DNA from: an uncultured Holophagaceae bacterium
GTDB taxonomy: Bacteria > Acidobacteriota > Holophagae > Holophagales > Holophagaceae
Length of the DNA stretch: 64,000 nucleotides
Direction: 5' to 3'
Assembly: GCA_903913215.1 (NCBI GenBank)
Contig: CAIWKE010000010.1
Span: forward strand, 62,001 to 126,000
This document shows, piece after piece, positions 16,203 through 35,724 of this stretch. Positions within the stretch are counted from its first letter, which is position 1. Each line of letters opens with the position of its first letter. Under the pieces are notes generated by a model. It had not been told where the DNA came from, did not search any database, and was given only the letters and a program-made list of their open reading frames with translations. The position numbers were made by a program, and so were the translations under genes.

Positions 16203-16238
16203 GCCACAAAGAACACAAAGAACACAAAGAACACAAAG
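16203..16238. repeat. Tandem 9-bp purine-rich repeat (ACAAAGAAC type)
   Basis: GCCACAAAG followed by three further 9-bp-spaced copies of ACACAAAG(A) in the gap between the RND pump and DUF2892 genes. It matches the arms of the inverted repeat at 31756-31929. Confidence 0.8.
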
Positions 16239-24630: not shown

Positions 24631-27600
24631 TTAGCGGACCAGCGCCATGGTGTAGGGCGCGCTGCTGCCCACGCCGGTCAGGCTGTAGACCTGGATGTAG
24701 AGCGTGACCATGGCCAGCGAAGCAGGCTGGGGCGGGATGGTGAGCACCTGGGTGCTGGAGGTGGCGCGCCGGGCCCACTTGCCATCCGCGGGGTTGTCGC
24801 GCTCCACGGAGGACCCGCACACCAGCGTCGCGCCACGCAGGCCTGCGGTCGCGCTCTGACCCACGAGGGCCAGGCCATACATGGTGCCCGGAGGGCAGGT
24901 GAGGGTGATCTGCAGGGACTTGCCGGCCACCAGGCGGATGGCGAAGGTATCCAGGTCGCTGCCAGTGCTGATGGCCCCCTTGATGGTGGTGGCCGTGTCG
25001 GGAACGGCGTTGGCGGTGGCCACGCTGTTGTTGTTTTCGACCTCGTTGTAGGTCGTGGAGGGTGTGTTGCTGACCGTGAAGGAAACCGAAGCGGAGGTGC
25101 CCAGGTTGCCCGCCGCATCCACGGCCTTGGCCACCAGGGTGTGGGTGCCGTCGGCCACGGTGGTGGAGCTGAAGGCGTAGGTGTAAGGGCTGGCCGTGGC
25201 GCTGCCCTTGAGGACGCCGTCCACGTAGTAGTCCACCCGGGTCACACCCACCTTGTCCGTGGCCGTGGCCGTGAAGGTGATCGATCCAGCCGTGCCCGAG
25301 GCCTGGGCCGAGACAACGGGAGCAGTGGTGTCCTTGTTGGTCACGGTGAAGGCGACCGAGGCGGAGGTACCCAGGTTGCCCGCGGCATCAGCGGCCTTGG
25401 CCACCAGGGCGTGGGTGCCGTTAGCGACGGTGGTGGAGTCCCAGGCGTAGGTGTAGGGGCTGGCCGTGGCGCTGCCCTTGAGGACACCGTCCACGTAGTA
25501 GTCCACGCGGGTCACACCCACGTTGTCCGTGGCCGTGGCCGTGAAGGCAATGCTGCCTGCGGTGCCCGTGGCCTTGGCGCTGATGACGGGAGCCGTGGTG
25601 TCCTTCGGGGGATTGGCCACACTGAAGGAAACGGATGCGGAGGTGCCCAGGTTGCCCGCGGCATCGGCGGCCTTGGCCACCAGGGCGTGGCTGCCGTTGG
25701 CGACAGTGGTGGAGTCCCAGGCGTAGGTGTAGGGGCTGGCCGTGGCGCTGCCTTTGAGGACACCGTCCACGTAATAGTCCACGCGGGTCACGCCCACGTT
25801 ATCCGTGGCTGTGGCAGTGAAGCTGATGGCGGCCAGGGTGCCCGTGGCCTTGGCGCTCACCACGGGGACCGTGGTGTCCTTGGGCGGATTGGCCACACTG
25901 AAAGAGACCGAGGCAGAGGTTCCGAGGTTGCCCGCGGCATCGGCGGCCTTGGCCACCAGGGCGTGGCTGCCGTTGGCGACGGTGGTGGAGTCCCAGGCGT
26001 AGGTGTAGGGGGTGGCCGTGGCGCTGCCCTTGAGGACACCATCCACGTAGTAGTCCACGCGGGTCACGCCCACGTTGTCCGTGGCGGTGGCCGTGAAGCT
26101 GATGGCGGCCAGGGTGCCCGTGGCCTTGGCGCTCACGACGGGGGCGGTGGTATCCGGGGCAGTCCAGGCGCTGCCCACGTTGATGGCGGCGAAAGCGTTC
26201 CAGACCGCGGCCTCCTCGGCGCCGTTGGCGCCGTACAACTCTCGGGCGGAGGTGATGGAACCATTGCGGGCGGCCAGATAGTCGGACGTGGACGTGAGCT
26301 TGGTGGACACGGCCCGCCACCAGATGCGGAAGGCCTTGTCATTGCCCAGGCCCGTCATGCCCTTGGGCAGGTAGCTGCTGTACGAGGTGCTGGTGGTGGT
26401 GGCCGAGGCGCCCTGGCTCAGGAAGTAGAAGGCCCGGTTCATGGGGCCCGAGCTGTAGTGCACATCCAGGCCGCCCAGGCTGGCGCTCCAGGCATCGGGG
26501 CTGCGCCCATCGAGGCTGGGCTTGTACATGTAGCGCAGGGGCACGGGGAAGCTGGCGGTCTCCAGCTGCTCGCCAATGGTGAAGTTACCCCCGGTGTTGG
26601 GGATCACCGCACCGGCGCCGCCGGCGCCCTTGGCGTAGAAATCCACCATGGTGCCGAAGATGTCTGAGTTGGCTTCATTGAGGCCGCCGCTCTCGCCGTA
26701 GTAGTTGAGCTTGGCTGTGCTCGCCATGACGCCGTGGCCCATCTCGTGAGCCGCCACATCCAGGGCCGTGAGGGTCTTGAACAGGCTGCCGTCGCCATAG
26801 GTCATGCAGAAGCAGGCGTCGGACCAGAACGCGTTGTCATAGGCAGAGCTGTAGTGGACGCGGCTGAAGATCGCCCGCCCCGCGCCATCCAGGCCGTTGC
26901 GTCCCAGGACCTGCTTCAGGAAGTCCCAGGTGACCTGCATGCCGTAGTGGGCGTCCACGGCGGCGGTCTGGCCGTTCTTGGAGCTGCCGGGCTGGGCGGG
27001 GTTGTAGTTCAGGTTGTCGCCCCAGTCGTCCAGGCTGTTCGTGAAGACGGTGCCGTTGCCAGTGGTGCCGCTGCCCATGTTGGTGGTGTAGTTCCCGGCC
27101 CGGGTGAGGTCGCGCAGCTCGAAGCCGGAGCTGAGGCTGTTGGCGTTGATGGACACGTTGCCGCTGTATTCGGTACGGCCCACACCCACCTGGGCGCTGG
27201 TGTGGAGACTGGACCACTGCTGGAGGATCTCGCCCGTGTGGGCCTGGATGAGGAGGTCCTCGTGACGGGTGTCGGCCGCATCTTCCAGTTCCACGTGGAC
27301 CCAGTAGGCCAACTCGTTGCGCTGGGCCTGGTCCACGAAATGGTCGGCGTTGTCAGGGCTGCGCAGGCCCTCCTTGGCGACCTTGCGGCTCAAGGGGAGG
27401 ACCACCAGCTCAACCTCCGGGACCACCCGGTAGGCGGCCTTGGGGCCCACGGCCTGGTGGGCCACGGCCAGCACCTCGGCCACGCCGAGGCTGGGCTCCG
27501 GGCGCAGGGCCAGGTCGCGCACGAGGGCATCGGTGGTGATCTCGGAGTCACCCTGGGGCGACTGCCGGAGGATCAGCTCTCCGCCCCAGACCCGCAGGCC

Positions 27601-30296: not shown

Positions 30297-31748
30297 ATGT
30301 CGATACCGCCCCCTCCGGCCCCAACCGAACTGCATCCCCAGGGTCGCGGGGTCTTCTGCAACCGGACGTTGAACCTGCGCTCCGTGCGGGCCATCGGCTA
30401 CGACATGGACTACACCCTGGTGGACTACCGGGTGGATGCCTTCGAGCAGATGGTCTACGCCCAGGCCCGTGAGCGCCTGGGCACCGAGGGCTGGCCCGTG
30501 GGCGACCTGGCCTTCGACCCCGAGATGGTGACCCGGGGCCTGGTCATCGATACGGAGCTGGGCAACCTTGTGAAGGCCAACCGCTTCGGCTTTGTGAAGC
30601 GGGCCATGCATGGCACGCGGATGCTGGACTTCCCGCAGCAGCAGCAGGCTTATGGCCAAGTCCTGGTGGACCTGAGCGACAGCCGTTGGGTCTTCCTCAA
30701 CACCCTCTTCTCGCTGAGCGAGGGCTGCCTCTACGCCCAGGCCGTGGACCTCCTGGATGCAGGCGCCCTGCCCCGCCCTTTCGAATACGCCAGCCTCTAC
30801 CGCCACGTGCGGGCCCGGGTGGACGCCCAGCACATCGAGGGCACCCTCAAGGCCGCCATCGCCGCCGCGCCGGAACGCTACGTGGTGCAGGACCCGGAGT
30901 CGGCCCTGGCCCTCCTGGACCAGAAGATCGCCGGCAAGAAGCTGCTGCTCATCACCAACTCCGAGTGGCCCTTCACCGCGAAGATGATGGCCCACGCCTT
31001 CGACCGCCACCTGCCCGGGGACATGACCTGGCGGGAGCTCTTCGAGGTGGTCATCGTCAGCGCCCGCAAGCCCGCCTTCTTCACGGAGCACGGCCCTTTC
31101 TTCGAGGTGGTGGACGAGGAGGGCCTGCTGCGTCCCCTGCTGGGGCCCCTGCGCAGCGGCGGCATCTACCTGGGAGGCAGCGCCGCCCAGGTGGAGCGGG
31201 ATCTGGGCATCTCCGGCGACGAGATCCTCTACGTGGGCGACCACATGTTCGGTGACGTCCACGTGAGCAAGCGCACCCTCAGCTGGCGCACGGCCCTGGT
31301 CCTCCGGGAACTGGAGGGCGAGGTGGCGGCCCTGGCTGGCTTCCAGGCCATTGAAGCGCGCTTGCTCATCCTCATGCGTGCCAAGGGGGACCTGGAGGCT
31401 CGGCTCTCCCAGGCCCGCCTGGACCTGCAGCGCCTGCACGCGGGCTACGGCCCCCAGCCCGGCCCGGACCACGCCACCCTGGAGTCCCGGGTCCATGACC
31501 TGCGCGGCCAGTTGCTGGCCCTGGACGCCGAGATCGCCCCCCTGGCCCAGGCCGCCACGGAGCTGACCAACACCCGCTGGGGCCTCCTCACCCGCGCCGG
31601 CAATGACAAGAGTCACCTCACCCGCCAGATCGAGCGCTACGCCGACATCTACACCAGCCGCGTCTCGAACTTTCTGCTGGCCACCCCCTTCGCCTACTTC
31701 CGCTCCCCCAGGGGCAGCCTGCCGCATGATCCGACAGTCTCCTCGTAG
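30297..31748 (+). CDS. HAD-IG family 5'-nucleotidase (cytosolic IMP/GMP type)
   Basis: 483 residues of the large HAD-IG nucleotidase family. Motif I is GYDMDYTLVDY; downstream are LLITNSEWPF and EILYVGDHMFGDV for the later HAD motifs. A helical region near the C-terminus (ARLSQARLDLQRLHAGY) is typical. The family hydrolyses IMP and GMP to nucleosides. ATG at 30297 is chosen; an in-frame start at 30243 adds a low-complexity leader. Divergent from the S9 peptidase. Confidence 0.85.
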   Translation: MSIPPPPAPTELHPQGRGVFCNRTLNLRSVRAIGYDMDYTLVDYRVDAFEQMVYAQARERLGTEGWPVGDLAFDPEMVTRGLVIDTELGNLVKANRFGFVKRAMHGTRMLDFPQQQQAYGQVLVDLSDSRWVFLNTLFSLSEGCLYAQAVDLLDAGALPRPFEYASLYRHVRARVDAQHIEGTLKAAIAAAPERYVVQDPESALALLDQKIAGKKLLLITNSEWPFTAKMMAHAFDRHLPGDMTWRELFEVVIVSARKPAFFTEHGPFFEVVDEEGLLRPLLGPLRSGGIYLGGSAAQVERDLGISGDEILYVGDHMFGDVHVSKRTLSWRTALVLRELEGEVAALAGFQAIEARLLILMRAKGDLEARLSQARLDLQRLHAGYGPQPGPDHATLESRVHDLRGQLLALDAEIAPLAQAATELTNTRWGLLTRAGNDKSHLTRQIERYADIYTSRVSNFLLATPFAYFRSPRGSLPHDPTVSS

Positions 31749-31755
31749 GCCACAT

Positions 31756-31929
31756 GGCTGTTCTTTGTGCCCCTTGTGTTCTTTGTGGCTGAGCTCTTTC
31801 CACCCATGCAGCCGGAACAGAGTGTTCCTGATCAACCACAGAGTCCATGTGGCTGCCAACAAGGCCCTCTGAATGATTCTTGTTTTGAATTGGCCACAAA
31901 GAACACAAAGGGCACAAAGCAAAACAGCC
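31756..31929. repeat. Dispersed inverted repeat, CACAAAGAA family
   Basis: Arms at 31756-31789 and 31893-31929 are near-complementary (27-bp core with one mismatch, plus an outer GGCTGTT/AACAGCC separated by a 3-nt indel). They enclose ~100 nt that hold no gene but a second inverted pair (CCACATGG/CCATGTGG). The arms have the same 9-bp period as the copy at 16203-16238. It fills the 243-nt gap between the nucleotidase and thioesterase genes. Confidence 0.85.
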
Positions 31930-31991
31930 AAGGATCACCTGGCACCTTTTGAGGCGTTGTCGTCAACCAGAGCATCCATCGAGGCTATTCC

Positions 31992-32462
31992 ATGACGAAC
32001 CCAGGCATCTTCACACACCTCTTTGAGGTTCCCGAGGCCTCCATCGACGGGAACGGCCACGTGAACAACCTGGAGTACCTGCGCTGGATGCAGGATGTGG
32101 CCATCGCCCACTCGGACGCCTGTGGCTGGGACTTGGCGCGGTACCAGGAGGCACGGGGCACCTGGGTCATCCGCTCCCACCACATCGACTACCTTCGGCC
32201 CGCCTTTGTCGGAGAGGCACTGCGCCTGCTGACCTGGGTCGGTGGCTTCGAGGCGCAGACCTCACCCCGCCACTACCTGGTCTGGCGCGAGCGGGACCGC
32301 AAGGTCCTGGCCCGGGCCACCACCCAGTGGGTGTTCTTGAGCACCGAAACGGGCCGTCCCTGCCAGGTGCCTGACGAGTTCCGCTCGGCCTTCGTCGTGG
32401 TTCCCGACGAAAAGGAAGTGCTGCTGGCCCTCAGGGCATCGACCATTCCAAAAATCGATTAA
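31992..32462 (+). CDS. Acyl-CoA thioesterase, hotdog fold (4HBT family)
   Basis: 156 residues, single hotdog domain. The N-terminal signature IDGNGHVNNLEYLRWMQ, with the catalytic Asp region, and the following RSHHIDYLRPAFVGE are typical of the YbgC/4-hydroxybenzoyl-CoA/FatA thioesterase group. It hydrolyses acyl thioesters in the cytoplasm; chain specificity is unknown. GAGG lies seven nt before the ATG. Its last eight codons are part of a duplicated 162-bp unit. Confidence 0.9.
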   Translation: MTNPGIFTHLFEVPEASIDGNGHVNNLEYLRWMQDVAIAHSDACGWDLARYQEARGTWVIRSHHIDYLRPAFVGEALRLLTWVGGFEAQTSPRHYLVWRERDRKVLARATTQWVFLSTETGRPCQVPDEFRSAFVVVPDEKEVLLALRASTIPKID

Positions 32463-32754
32463 CCGCAGAGAACGCAGGGGGCGCAGAGGAAAGAGAGCTT
32501 CTCTCTGCGCCCTCTGCGTCCTCTGCGGTTAACTTCTTTCCCTCCGCGTTCTCAGCGGTTAGCGGTATTCATTCCGACAGTTCAACCTCACTTCAAGTCA
32601 TCGACCCTTCCAAAACTGATTAACCGCAGAGAACGCAAAGAGCGCAGATCTCACTACGCCCTCTGCGTCCTCTGCGGTTAACTTCTTTCCCTCCGCGTTC
32701 TCGGCGTTCTCAGCGGTTAGCGGTTTTCATTTCGACGATCCAAACATCACTTCA
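32437..32754. repeat. Tandem 162-bp repeat overlapping two gene ends
   Basis: Unit 1 begins at 32437 inside the thioesterase 3' end and unit 2 at 32599 (both begin CATCGACC(C/A)TTCCAAAA). Each unit holds a hairpin of ~28-bp imperfect arms (AACCGCAGAGAACGCAG and complement, 32461-32530 in unit 1) plus a partial third arm (CTCCGCGTTCTC). Unit 2 ends inside the last codons of the convergent gene at 32747. The 284-nt gap contains no gene. Confidence 0.9.
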
Positions 32755-34147
32755 CCGCATAAACCGTCGCTCCGTAGTGTGCTGCGTCCCGCGGGGCATC
32801 GTCGTTCCAGTGTCCATAGGCGTGGGAGCTGTCGGTGCGGACGTGCAGGGTGTAGGCACCCGGCCCCAGCTTCACCAGCTCGTCGGCGACGCGGTTCTTG
32901 CGGGCACCGCCGGCGTGGTGGGTCTTCTTCTCGTCCAGCTCCCAGACCCGCTTGCCAGCGGCATCCTCGATCCAGGCCATGTCGGCCATCTCATCCCCGT
33001 TGGCTTCGCCCAGGGCGTAGACCCACACCGTCTGGGCCGAACCCAGCTTGAAGGGGGCGCTGCGGTCCTCGCTGTTGCCCACCTTCACCAGCTCCGCCAG
33101 GACGGGGCCGGGGCTGGGCAGGGGGCGCAGGGAGAAGGCACTGGCATCGCCCACCCGGGGCAGGGACAAGGTGAGACCGTAGAGCCCGGGGTCGCAGGGC
33201 GGAGCCGCATTCCAGTCCGCGGGGGAGTGGGAATCGTCCGTCACGAAGGTGGCCACGTAGTCCCCGGCGGGCAGCTCAATGGTCTCCACCTGGCGGCGGT
33301 TCTTTTGCGCTCCCCCGGCGTACTGGGCCTTTTGCGGGGTCATCTCCCAGACCCGGGCCCGGGTGTGGACATCCTGAATCCAGCCCAGGTCATTCAAGCG
33401 TCGCTCGGAGCCTTCGCCCAGGGCGTAGATATGCAGTTGCACCGGCCGCTGCAAGTGGAAGGCCTGACTCCACTCGCCGTCATCCCGAGTCGCCGCCACG
33501 CTGAGGACAATGCCCTGCCAGCGCAGGGGCGCCTCGAAGAGGCCGACTTCCTTCGGATCACCGGAGGGAAGGTAGAGTTCCATGCCGTACATCCCCACCT
33601 GCTCCTTCCAGTGCCGCAGGAGGCTGGACTCGTCGGCACCGATGGCCGCCAGAAATCCGTGGGATCGCTTTTCGCTCTGTTCCTTGAGGTCACGACGGTC
33701 GATGTTGCGGTCCCACTGGGCGAAAAGGAGGCTCTGCGCGAAACCATGGTTGGAGAAGTAGGCTTCGTAGCTGCCCGCGGGCAGATCCAAATACTGGTCC
33801 GCAATGCGGTACTCCCAGTTCCGCTTGGTGTTCATGCCATCCATCTGCCAGACCACCTCCCGGGTGGTGGCATTGAGAATCCAACCGTAGGCGAAGAAGG
33901 GGTTGGTGTTGAAGCTCCGGCCCAGGTGCCGGACACCCGCACCCCGAGCATAAATGTGGACCTTCATGGCCCGGGGCAGGGTGAAGCCCTGCTGACGCAC
34001 TTCGACCTCCTCGAAGCCGTGGAGGGCTACGATGCGCGGTTCCGCGGCCCGCAGTCCCAGGCACGCGGCGGCCAGGGCCAAGCCCACCACCAGTAGCCCC
34101 AGCCGCCGACCCAGGGCACCAAATTCGGAAAGCAGGACAGGCAGCAT
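32747..34147 (-). CDS. Exported protein with three copies of an unrecognised module
   Basis: 466 residues. Hydrophobic N-terminal signal (LGLLVVGLALAAACLGLRAAE). Three modules of ~110-150 residues share the pattern: (I/V)YA-G, then a W-I-D/N core with VWEM or VWQM, a basic KNR or KRN, a LPAGSY/LPAGDY/LGPGAY turn, and in copies 2 and 3 DSSHAYGHWN or DDSHSPADWN followed by YGLTL/YGATV. I know no family for this. The start ATG at 34147 follows GGGGG; longer frames upstream lack signal character. It follows a four-helix membrane protein gene in the same direction. Confidence 0.75.
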   Translation of the reverse strand: MLPVLLSEFGALGRRLGLLVVGLALAAACLGLRAAEPRIVALHGFEEVEVRQQGFTLPRAMKVHIYARGAGVRHLGRSFNTNPFFAYGWILNATTREVVWQMDGMNTKRNWEYRIADQYLDLPAGSYEAYFSNHGFAQSLLFAQWDRNIDRRDLKEQSEKRSHGFLAAIGADESSLLRHWKEQVGMYGMELYLPSGDPKEVGLFEAPLRWQGIVLSVAATRDDGEWSQAFHLQRPVQLHIYALGEGSERRLNDLGWIQDVHTRARVWEMTPQKAQYAGGAQKNRRQVETIELPAGDYVATFVTDDSHSPADWNAAPPCDPGLYGLTLSLPRVGDASAFSLRPLPSPGPVLAELVKVGNSEDRSAPFKLGSAQTVWVYALGEANGDEMADMAWIEDAAGKRVWELDEKKTHHAGGARKNRVADELVKLGPGAYTLHVRTDSSHAYGHWNDDAPRDAAHYGATVYAVK

Positions 34148-34248
34148 GGGAACCCCCGGGGACCCCTCCAAGCTAAGCCTCCCGGCGCACCGATTTCCAG
34201 AAGATCGGCGAATGGAGGGTTCCCACCGGCGAATGGACCGTCGGCTCG

Positions 34249-35724
34249 CTACCACTGCTCCAGGAAGGCCTGGGCCTCGGCCACGGCCTCCGGGGAGAGG
34301 TGGGCGAAGCGCATGAGCCGGTCATTGAATTCATAGTGCAGCTCCCGGTTCTCCTCCAGCAGCAGCTCCAACTGCTCGCGGTGGATGGCCTCATCGGTGA
34401 GGAAGCGCCAGTAGATGGCGTCCGCCAACTCCTGCTGGCCCCGGGTCTTGGCCTCCCAGTAGGTGCGCAGCAGGGTGCGCCAGCCCACCTTCTTCATGGT
34501 GCTTTCGGGGGCGATGGCCTCCTGCCATACGGGGCCGGCCCAGGCGCGAATGAGTTCGAGGGACGCCTCCTCGTCCACCGTCCCCAGGCTGAGGATCAGC
34601 TCGCCGAGATCGTAGACCACGGTCTCGAAGGCAAAGGCCAGCCCCTGCCGGGCGCCCATGCGCGCGTAGTGCATGAGGTGGCGGGTGGCCTCATGCATGC
34701 GTTCGGGATCGGCGTGGAAGGCCTCGATGAGCAGGCGGTAGTAGTAGGAGAGGTTCTGGAAACGCCGCAGATCCATCTGCTCCACGGACTCCCGCAGCAG
34801 CATGTTGAAGGTCATGACATGCAGCTCGATGACGGCGGAGGCTTCCAGATCGCAGGCCTGACGGGCCGTGTCCACCAGCTGGCTGGCCAGTTCTGACAGC
34901 AGCTCGTGCTGACGCCTAGTGGCCACCTCCGTGATCTTGAGGGTCTGGGCCAGGACGTAGGCCTCGGGCCAGACCTGTTCGCGCATGAGGTAGCCCTGCC
35001 CCTCCTGAGCCAGGCCCGGCACGAACCAGGGCCGCGAACTGCGCCAGCCAAGTGAATTGTCCCGATCGCTGCCGATGATGCCCGCCAGGAGGAGGTGCAG
35101 GGCATCGAGGGAGCGCAGCACCAGCTGCCGGTCGCCCCGGGCCATGCCTGTGAGGGCCATGTTGGTGAGCACATCGATGGTTTCGAAGAGCTCGTCTTTG
35201 TGAGCCTCCACTTTGTGCCCACGCCCCAGGTCCCGCAGGTCGTGCAGGCCCTTGCGGGTGAGCATGGGCACGAAGTAGCTGGGGCGCAGGAAGCGGCTGA
35301 TGCCGTAGAGGAAGGGCAGGGCCCCCATCATCACCAGCAGGTAGATAAGGGCCAGTAGGTCAACCAGGACATGGTTCAGGCGGCTCGCCGGGGGGATGAA
35401 GTTCAGGATCAGGCAGATGATCTGGCTACCCACCAGCAGGGAGAGCATGACCACGATGAGCGGGTGGCGCACGTAGACCGTCACCAGCTTGGGCGTGTAG
35501 AGGTTGGCCGTGAGAGGCACGATGAGGGCGATGCAGGTGAGCACCACGGCCATGAACTGGTTCAGGGTCCGACCCACGACGGGCAGGGTGTTGGAATCCA
35601 CGCCCTGGTTGACCCCATAGAGCGAAATGAAGGCCGCCAACCCCACCGCCGCCGTGAGCCCCAACCCCGTCAGCAGCGCGAGGCCGCGGGGGTTCTGGGA
35701 CTGGCCGAGCGAGGACTTCTCCAT
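34249..35724 (-). CDS. Integral membrane protein with long helical cytoplasmic domain, unknown
   Basis: 491 residues. Four N-terminal membrane segments (about 13-35, 55-77, 86-110, 117-145) are followed by ~340 residues of mostly alpha-helical, charged sequence (RRQHELLSELASQLVDTARQ). The layout resembles DUF2254-type membrane proteins, but I cannot confirm the family. It probably forms a two-gene unit with the triple-module protein 101 nt downstream. Confidence 0.75.
   Translation of the reverse strand: MEKSSLGQSQNPRGLALLTGLGLTAAVGLAAFISLYGVNQGVDSNTLPVVGRTLNQFMAVVLTCIALIVPLTANLYTPKLVTVYVRHPLIVVMLSLLVGSQIICLILNFIPPASRLNHVLVDLLALIYLLVMMGALPFLYGISRFLRPSYFVPMLTRKGLHDLRDLGRGHKVEAHKDELFETIDVLTNMALTGMARGDRQLVLRSLDALHLLLAGIIGSDRDNSLGWRSSRPWFVPGLAQEGQGYLMREQVWPEAYVLAQTLKITEVATRRQHELLSELASQLVDTARQACDLEASAVIELHVMTFNMLLRESVEQMDLRRFQNLSYYYRLLIEAFHADPERMHEATRHLMHYARMGARQGLAFAFETVVYDLGELILSLGTVDEEASLELIRAWAGPVWQEAIAPESTMKKVGWRTLLRTYWEAKTRGQQELADAIYWRFLTDEAIHREQLELLLEENRELHYEFNDRLMRFAHLSPEAVAEAQAFLEQW

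Follow-up and report, generated by a model that had tools for sequence, protein, structure and literature searches.

A repeated hairpin between two converging genes

Two converging genes of an uncultured Holophagaceae bacterium are held apart by a hairpin-bearing sequence that is present twice, head to tail, and that carries pieces of gene ends with it. What this sequence is, how it came to lie between these genes and whether it serves either of them are the questions addressed here. The window, by which we mean the whole 64,000-nucleotide stretch of DNA analysed, sits in contig C10 of a draft genome of 3.9 Mb in 41 contigs, and open reading frames were called using a simple codon-score method. 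One of the two genes encodes a thioesterase whose best named matches come from Geothrix and uncultured Holophagaceae MAGs (Acidobacteria). The other, referred to below as the convergent gene, has no Pfam match at E 0.001, and a match to it is present in 39 of the 47 genomes of the genus (own genome counted). The stop codons of the two genes are 284 nt apart, and the gap is occupied by a two-unit tandem array (Table 1).

Self-comparison aligned 32431-32595 with 32593-32754 at an offset of 162 nt (E 4e-38, 78% identity with gaps counted). The two units, 162 nt each, agree at 135 of the 148 columns without gaps, and their alignment score of 209 compares with a best score of 43.5 among 1000 shuffles by base pairs of letters. 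A first-pass annotation of this DNA had reported a tandem duplication with two units of this length, each with a long hairpin, and its description of the array is right to within a few nucleotides. It had also judged the event to be not very recent from substitutions and small indels, which is borne out by 13 mismatches and 6 gap events, among them a 9-nt unit that only copy 2 has and 12 nt missing from its hairpin. The copies are too different for the array to be an assembly echo of a single sequence.

The boundaries of the array fall inside both genes. The annotation had placed the start within the last eight codons of the thioesterase; capture of the gene end holds, but the exact start is 32431, which puts 32 nt of the gene into the unit (2 nt plus 9 codons plus TAA). 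The second copy ends within the last codons of the convergent gene, as proposed, at a point 8 nt inside it (the stop codon and 5 nt). Besides the thioesterase end, whose capture the annotation had noted, the end of the convergent gene is copied too. The TAA of the thioesterase falls in the edge of hairpin 1 (TTAACC). On the + strand, RNA folding gave -60.6 kcal/mol for hairpin 1 and -34.4 kcal/mol for hairpin 2, with z of -10.8 (+) and -8.6 (-) for the former and -6.1 (+) and -8.4 (-) for the latter. At gathering score, Rfam found two tRNAs only in the window and no match to the hairpin; at E up to 5 there were 39 matches in 31740-32800, all under gathering.

Table 1. Features of the array and its neighbours in the window, followed by the three duplicated loci found elsewhere in the genome.
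Feature	Position	Strand	Remarks
Thioesterase gene	31992..32462	+	156 aa, 4HBT_2 / acyl-ACP thioesterase-like; PF13279 E 2.2e-17
Repeat unit 1	32431..32592		Last 32 nt of thioesterase, hairpin 1, outer arm, right flank
Imperfect direct repeat with array right flank (32732-32748)	32439..32456	+	Flank-test score 11; possible target duplication
A5 on +, a T5 run behind hairpin 1 for convergent-gene transcripts	32450..32454	-	Inside thioesterase codons
Hairpin 1, copy of dispersed palindrome of 9-nt units	32459..32532		35-nt arms 32459-32493/32498-32532, 89% complementary
Outer partial arm of unit 1, CTCCGCGTTCTCAGCGGTTAGCGGT	32542..32566		
TCACTTCA, captured copy of last 8 nt of convergent gene	32588..32595	-	Original at 32747-32754
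Duplication junction TCA	32593..32595	+	Repeated at outer edges 32431-32433 and 32752-32754; 3-nt microhomology
Repeat unit 2	32593..32754		Copied thioesterase end, shorter by one base; hairpin 2 and outer arm; final 8 nt of convergent gene
Hairpin 2, same dispersed palindrome	32620..32681		12 nt shorter; arms 32620-32647/32654-32681
Outer partial arm of unit 2	32691..32724		One extra 9-nt unit
Convergent gene, family unknown	32747..34255	-	ORF 502 aa; 464 aa from start used in searches
Duplicated locus L124	1205-1575		82%
Duplicated locus L126	1194-1439		92%
Duplicated locus L129	7214-7523		86%

One copy of a palindrome found across the genome

The hairpin at this locus is a copy of a dispersed palindrome made of 9-nt units, CGCAGAGRR. 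BLAST of the array against its own genome gave at least 95 matches (40 of 52 candidates scored), which merge into at least 48 places. In its common form the palindrome consists of 5'-TTAACCGCAGAGRRCGCAGAGRRCGCAGAG and its reverse complement, separated by a loop, and one side often carries an outer partial arm (CTCCGCGTTCTCAGCGGTT); the main hairpin is about 60-85 nt long, and the whole reaches up to about 150 nt with the outer parts included. A 16-nt pattern, CGCAGAGRRCGCAGAG, has 52 + 49 = 101 hits in the genome compared to 0 + 0 for the reversed pattern. The same pattern is found in 31 of the 47 genus genomes, with 0 to 101 hits per genome and the most in the genome studied here; reversed, it has one hit across all 47. 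Topic searches of a limited literature set found no such repeat family named in titles or abstracts, and a text search of that set for the repeat strings and look-alikes gave matches only under unrelated titles.

Some copies carry a head motif, GGCAGCANCCATCGGTT, on the side opposite the outer arm. The genome has 21 occurrences at up to 2 mismatches, compared to one for the reversed pattern, and no listed place has it inverted on both sides. Near 12 of the 21 head-motif places (L341-L361) there are 9-nt units, nine of them, by reading, at the same spacing. The idea that the thioesterase tail is part of the head motif found no support: 13% of random flanks match it as well as unit 1 does, and 74% as well as unit 2. 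A test for compensatory pairing between arms was negative. Among 26 cores, the arms of one copy pair at 23.69 of 28 positions with each other and at 23.58 with the arms of other copies (p 0.32); because own arms pair no better than foreign ones, there is no sign of selection on pairing.

Two further repeats in the window share the 9-nt period. Upstream of the thioesterase, 31751-31929 holds an inverted pair of 9-nt units of CACAAAGAA type (GGCCACAAAGAACACAAAGGGCACAAAG paired with its approximate reverse complement), with a period as in the CGCAGAG family and different letters. At 16205-16238, CACAAAGAA is repeated 3.8 times with 100% match, a 9-nt word common to both places.

How does such a family spread? 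It might consist of classical REP elements mobilized by a Y1 tyrosine transposase (RAYT), with the array as a BIME-like pair. REP elements and BIMEs with RAYT transposases (PMC2817692, PMC3733652) are short dispersed extragenic palindromes that at times form local clusters. The palindrome described here is likewise short and dispersed, present in tens of copies and mostly intergenic, with 44 of 48 places between called genes or overlapping a gene edge by at most 60 nt. It differs in that its arms are built of 9-nt units and that tags of the GTAG/CGTC type, on either strand, lie within 8 nt of only 5 of 71 arm ends. Furthermore, Y1_Tnp (PF01797) is absent from the genome, which is rated 95% complete, in a search that was positive in 5 of 14 control genomes. 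Within the genus, the 5 of 47 genomes that carry Y1_Tnp are poor in the motif (1-7 pattern hits each), and genomes with at least 14 hits have none. A missing transposase alone does not exclude the REP class, because CGTC-tagged REPs without a dedicated one are described in PMC3733652. We consider a classical REP origin, with its transposase, most improbable.

ERIC/IRU elements and other MITE-like imperfect palindromes measure 100-200 nt. The palindrome is like them in length, in its intergenic place and in being large and imperfect, a likeness of description, and it differs in showing no general target-site duplication. Across 39 places, own flanks are no more alike than foreign flanks (mean score 7.13 compared to 7.11, permutation p 0.48), and an earlier, cruder test gave p 0.25, so that neither test supports target-site duplication as a general feature; at the window locus one is possible (Table 1). 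The palindrome resembles REP/ERIC-type repeats, a resemblance that falls short of demonstrated membership.

The junction in related genomes

The same junction was compared in 14 relatives of the genus with a full-length thioesterase match (L022-L035), leaving aside partial or weak thioesterase matches in G014, G017 and G025. The convergent gene adjoins the thioesterase in 11 of them, with stops 7-9 nt apart in four and overlapping in seven (gap values -12 or -16), which leaves no room for a hairpin. None of these 11 has the 284-nt insert. In the remaining three (G007, G008 and G042), 2.0-2.5 kb separate the two genes. Even with the closest relatives, protein identity is only about 71-73%. Since the genes abut in 11 of 14 relatives compared to a 284-nt gap here, the palindrome probably entered the junction in the lineage of this organism and was duplicated afterwards.

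The AAC...GTT ends of the palindrome brought integron attC sites into consideration; at this junction, both flanking genes are shared with 11 of the 14 relatives. Separately, a 28-residue piece of the thioesterase still matches in G014 (C18:58728-60172) and ends 8 nt from the convergent gene; it is perhaps a truncated gene.

A possible role in ending transcripts

Intrinsic (Rho-independent) bidirectional terminators consist of a hairpin followed by a T-rich tail. The palindrome shares their stable, GC-rich stem and is likewise frequent at convergent gene pairs, and many of its copies have T-rich sequence behind the stem, on both strands. Across the family, a run of at least four T's lies within 20 nt behind the 3' arm at 31 of 66 arm ends, which include both strands and partial arms and are not independent, compared to 1.9% of 6108 background 20-mers. 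The T's are densest 7-9 nt behind GGTT. The palindrome differs from such terminators in that its sequence is kept between loci as a repeat family and in that a strict terminator scan of 32400-32800 found no terminator. At the locus itself, the + strand tail is only AACTTCTTTCCC, and the - strand has a T5 run behind hairpin 1.

Gene context was classified at 44 places, with 4 of 48 set aside (among them L129 7246-7567, divergent-looking by eye), and gave 17 convergent, 25 co-directional and 2 divergent placements. An earlier count of 41 places had given 15 convergent, 4 divergent, 21 co-directional and 1 unknown. As a background, the 29 gaps of at least 40 nt in the window, which include the locus itself, comprise 3 convergent and 4 divergent ones. 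For the convergent excess, Fisher p is 0.008 (convergent compared to divergent, p 0.0007). The co-directional copies have no preference, 12 being nearer the downstream start and 13 nearer the upstream stop.

From these features, we propose that the palindrome is probably a two-way transcription stop signal. The first-pass annotation had suggested that the duplication extends the mRNA 3' ends of both genes; T-tracts and convergent excess appear to point to transcript ending or 3'-end protection instead. The convergent excess would also be compatible with purging of insertions from promoters. As a quite possible alternative, the hairpin serves neither gene and is neutral, a selfish palindrome in decay whose presence at gene ends is tolerated. 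The lack of arm covariation, a copy number that runs from 0 to 101 hits within the genus, the negative strict scan and the indifference of co-directional copies to the upstream stop all agree with neutrality, and the T-tract excess behind the arms, together with the excess at convergent pairs (the latter with the reservation about promoters), argues for a role.

Other tandem duplications span the palindrome

To place the duplication in the context of the genome, we scanned the 34 first-fetched own-genome loci besides the window (101 kb) for tandem duplications of at least 60 nt at offsets of 60-600. Three were found (Table 1), all of which span the palindrome and host flank, and these 101 kb contained no other tandem duplication. 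Seven further own-genome loci had none. With the window locus included, 4 of 48 places are duplicated. The only other direct repeats of this kind in the window are at 32891-33429, inside the convergent gene, and at 25065-26155, where a 276-nt unit is repeated 3.9 times (25077-26155, 88% matches) inside an ORF of 1124 aa on the - strand, whose product presumably has repeated domains.

The units of L124 and L126 take in the 3' end of the gene called upstream, and their junctions share one position, behind CTCTGCGCYCTCT and 13 nt from the start of the 3' arm. In L129 the unit takes in the apparent start of a divergent gene (by eye), and there, as in the window, the junction is outside the hairpin. 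The shared junction point in L124 and L126 is suggestive of a fold-back origin, though not proof of it.

In four sister genomes, 30 loci (22 distinct places, by reading) had no duplication at the palindrome, and neither had 30 loci (23 places) in three other genomes of the phylum; these were best or first-listed matches and represent a minority of the copies in those genomes. Because a rate of 4 in 48 makes finding none unsurprising, absence in these 22 and 23 places is weak evidence. One place in a sister genome, seen in both L316 and L320, has a repeat away from the palindrome.

Three routes to the array can be weighed against these observations. Two separate side-by-side insertions of a mobile element would be conceivable for a hairpin that is dispersed and could insert repeatedly near one site. 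However, host sequence of both gene ends is repeated in register beyond the hairpin, and nothing shows that the thioesterase tail, matched equally well by 13% or 74% of random flanks, is a part of the element. We therefore find two insertions very unlikely.

Unequal recombination could have acted between the short direct repeats that flank the array (TCGACCATTCCAAAAATC / TCGACGATCCAAACATC), which would themselves be a target-site duplication left by transposition. The own-flank repeat of the window is the best of the 39 places, with a score of 11 (reached by 3.2% of mismatched flank pairs), and the duplicated L129 scores 9. Against this, the unduplicated L146 and L139 score 10, the duplicated L124 and L126 are not among the best eight, and the genome-wide comparison of own with foreign flanks described above gave no difference. 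The middle of the array also carries both flank versions and not one hybrid. Recombination of this kind is, in our judgement, unlikely.

Hairpin-linked replication slippage is a further mechanism for duplications. As in such slippage or template switching, the duplications here span a hairpin, two junctions lie in an arm and microhomology is small (3 nt at the locus); the difference is that the process is read here from fixed sequence. Passages of PMC7999016 treat template switching at hairpins in other organisms; the word slippage does not occur in them.

We consider it fairly probable that the palindrome entered the convergent junction, acts there as a likely bidirectional terminator or 3'-end stem, and was later duplicated by hairpin-caused slippage. 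More specifically, a dispersed palindrome would have been inserted where two convergent genes met, with stops that, judging from the relatives, were a few nucleotides apart or overlapping. Through the insertion, each gene would have come to be followed by a hairpin and T-rich sequence, likely an intrinsic terminator that works in both directions or a stem that protects the 3' end, and the TTAA edge of the palindrome would have supplied the stop codon of the thioesterase. In a later replication error, the nascent strand may have folded on itself at the 5' arm and left the template. By slipping back about 160 nt and recopying the stretch, it would have produced the second hairpin together with copies of both gene ends.

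Distribution beyond the genus and significance

Among 396 sampled genomes of the phylum, the CGCAGAGRRCGCAGAG pattern is present in 71 (own genus counted), with high counts in a few distant ones. Three such distant, copy-rich genomes, G207, G366 and G072, have the same 9-nt words, and the hairpins listed for them differ in design. Those of G207 have, for example, GAGAAGA/TCTTCTC cores. Outside the phylum, two Gemmatirosa plasmids (Gemmatimonadota) from one organism have stretches similar to the hairpin, 12 on one plasmid and 6 on the other, with top identities of 77% and 75%, respectively, along roughly 100 nt. The set of 12 is on L429, which is Gemmatirosa kalamazoonensis plasmid 1, a large plasmid.

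A bolder and rather doubtful extension is that the CGCAGAGRR hairpins form an undescribed, lineage-tailored palindrome family in at least two phyla (Acidobacteriota and Gemmatimonadota), spread without a Y1 transposase and, where abundant, serving as hot spots of duplication at which gene 3' ends are copied and reshaped time and again.

The locus is a modest curiosity and not a new kind of system: an odd local duplication is explained as one case of a genome-wide repeat. What deserves further attention is that such duplications recur, at four loci in all. These four natural junctions, two of them cut at one point of an arm, provide material on hairpin-caused tandem duplication and on the altered gene ends that come with it.
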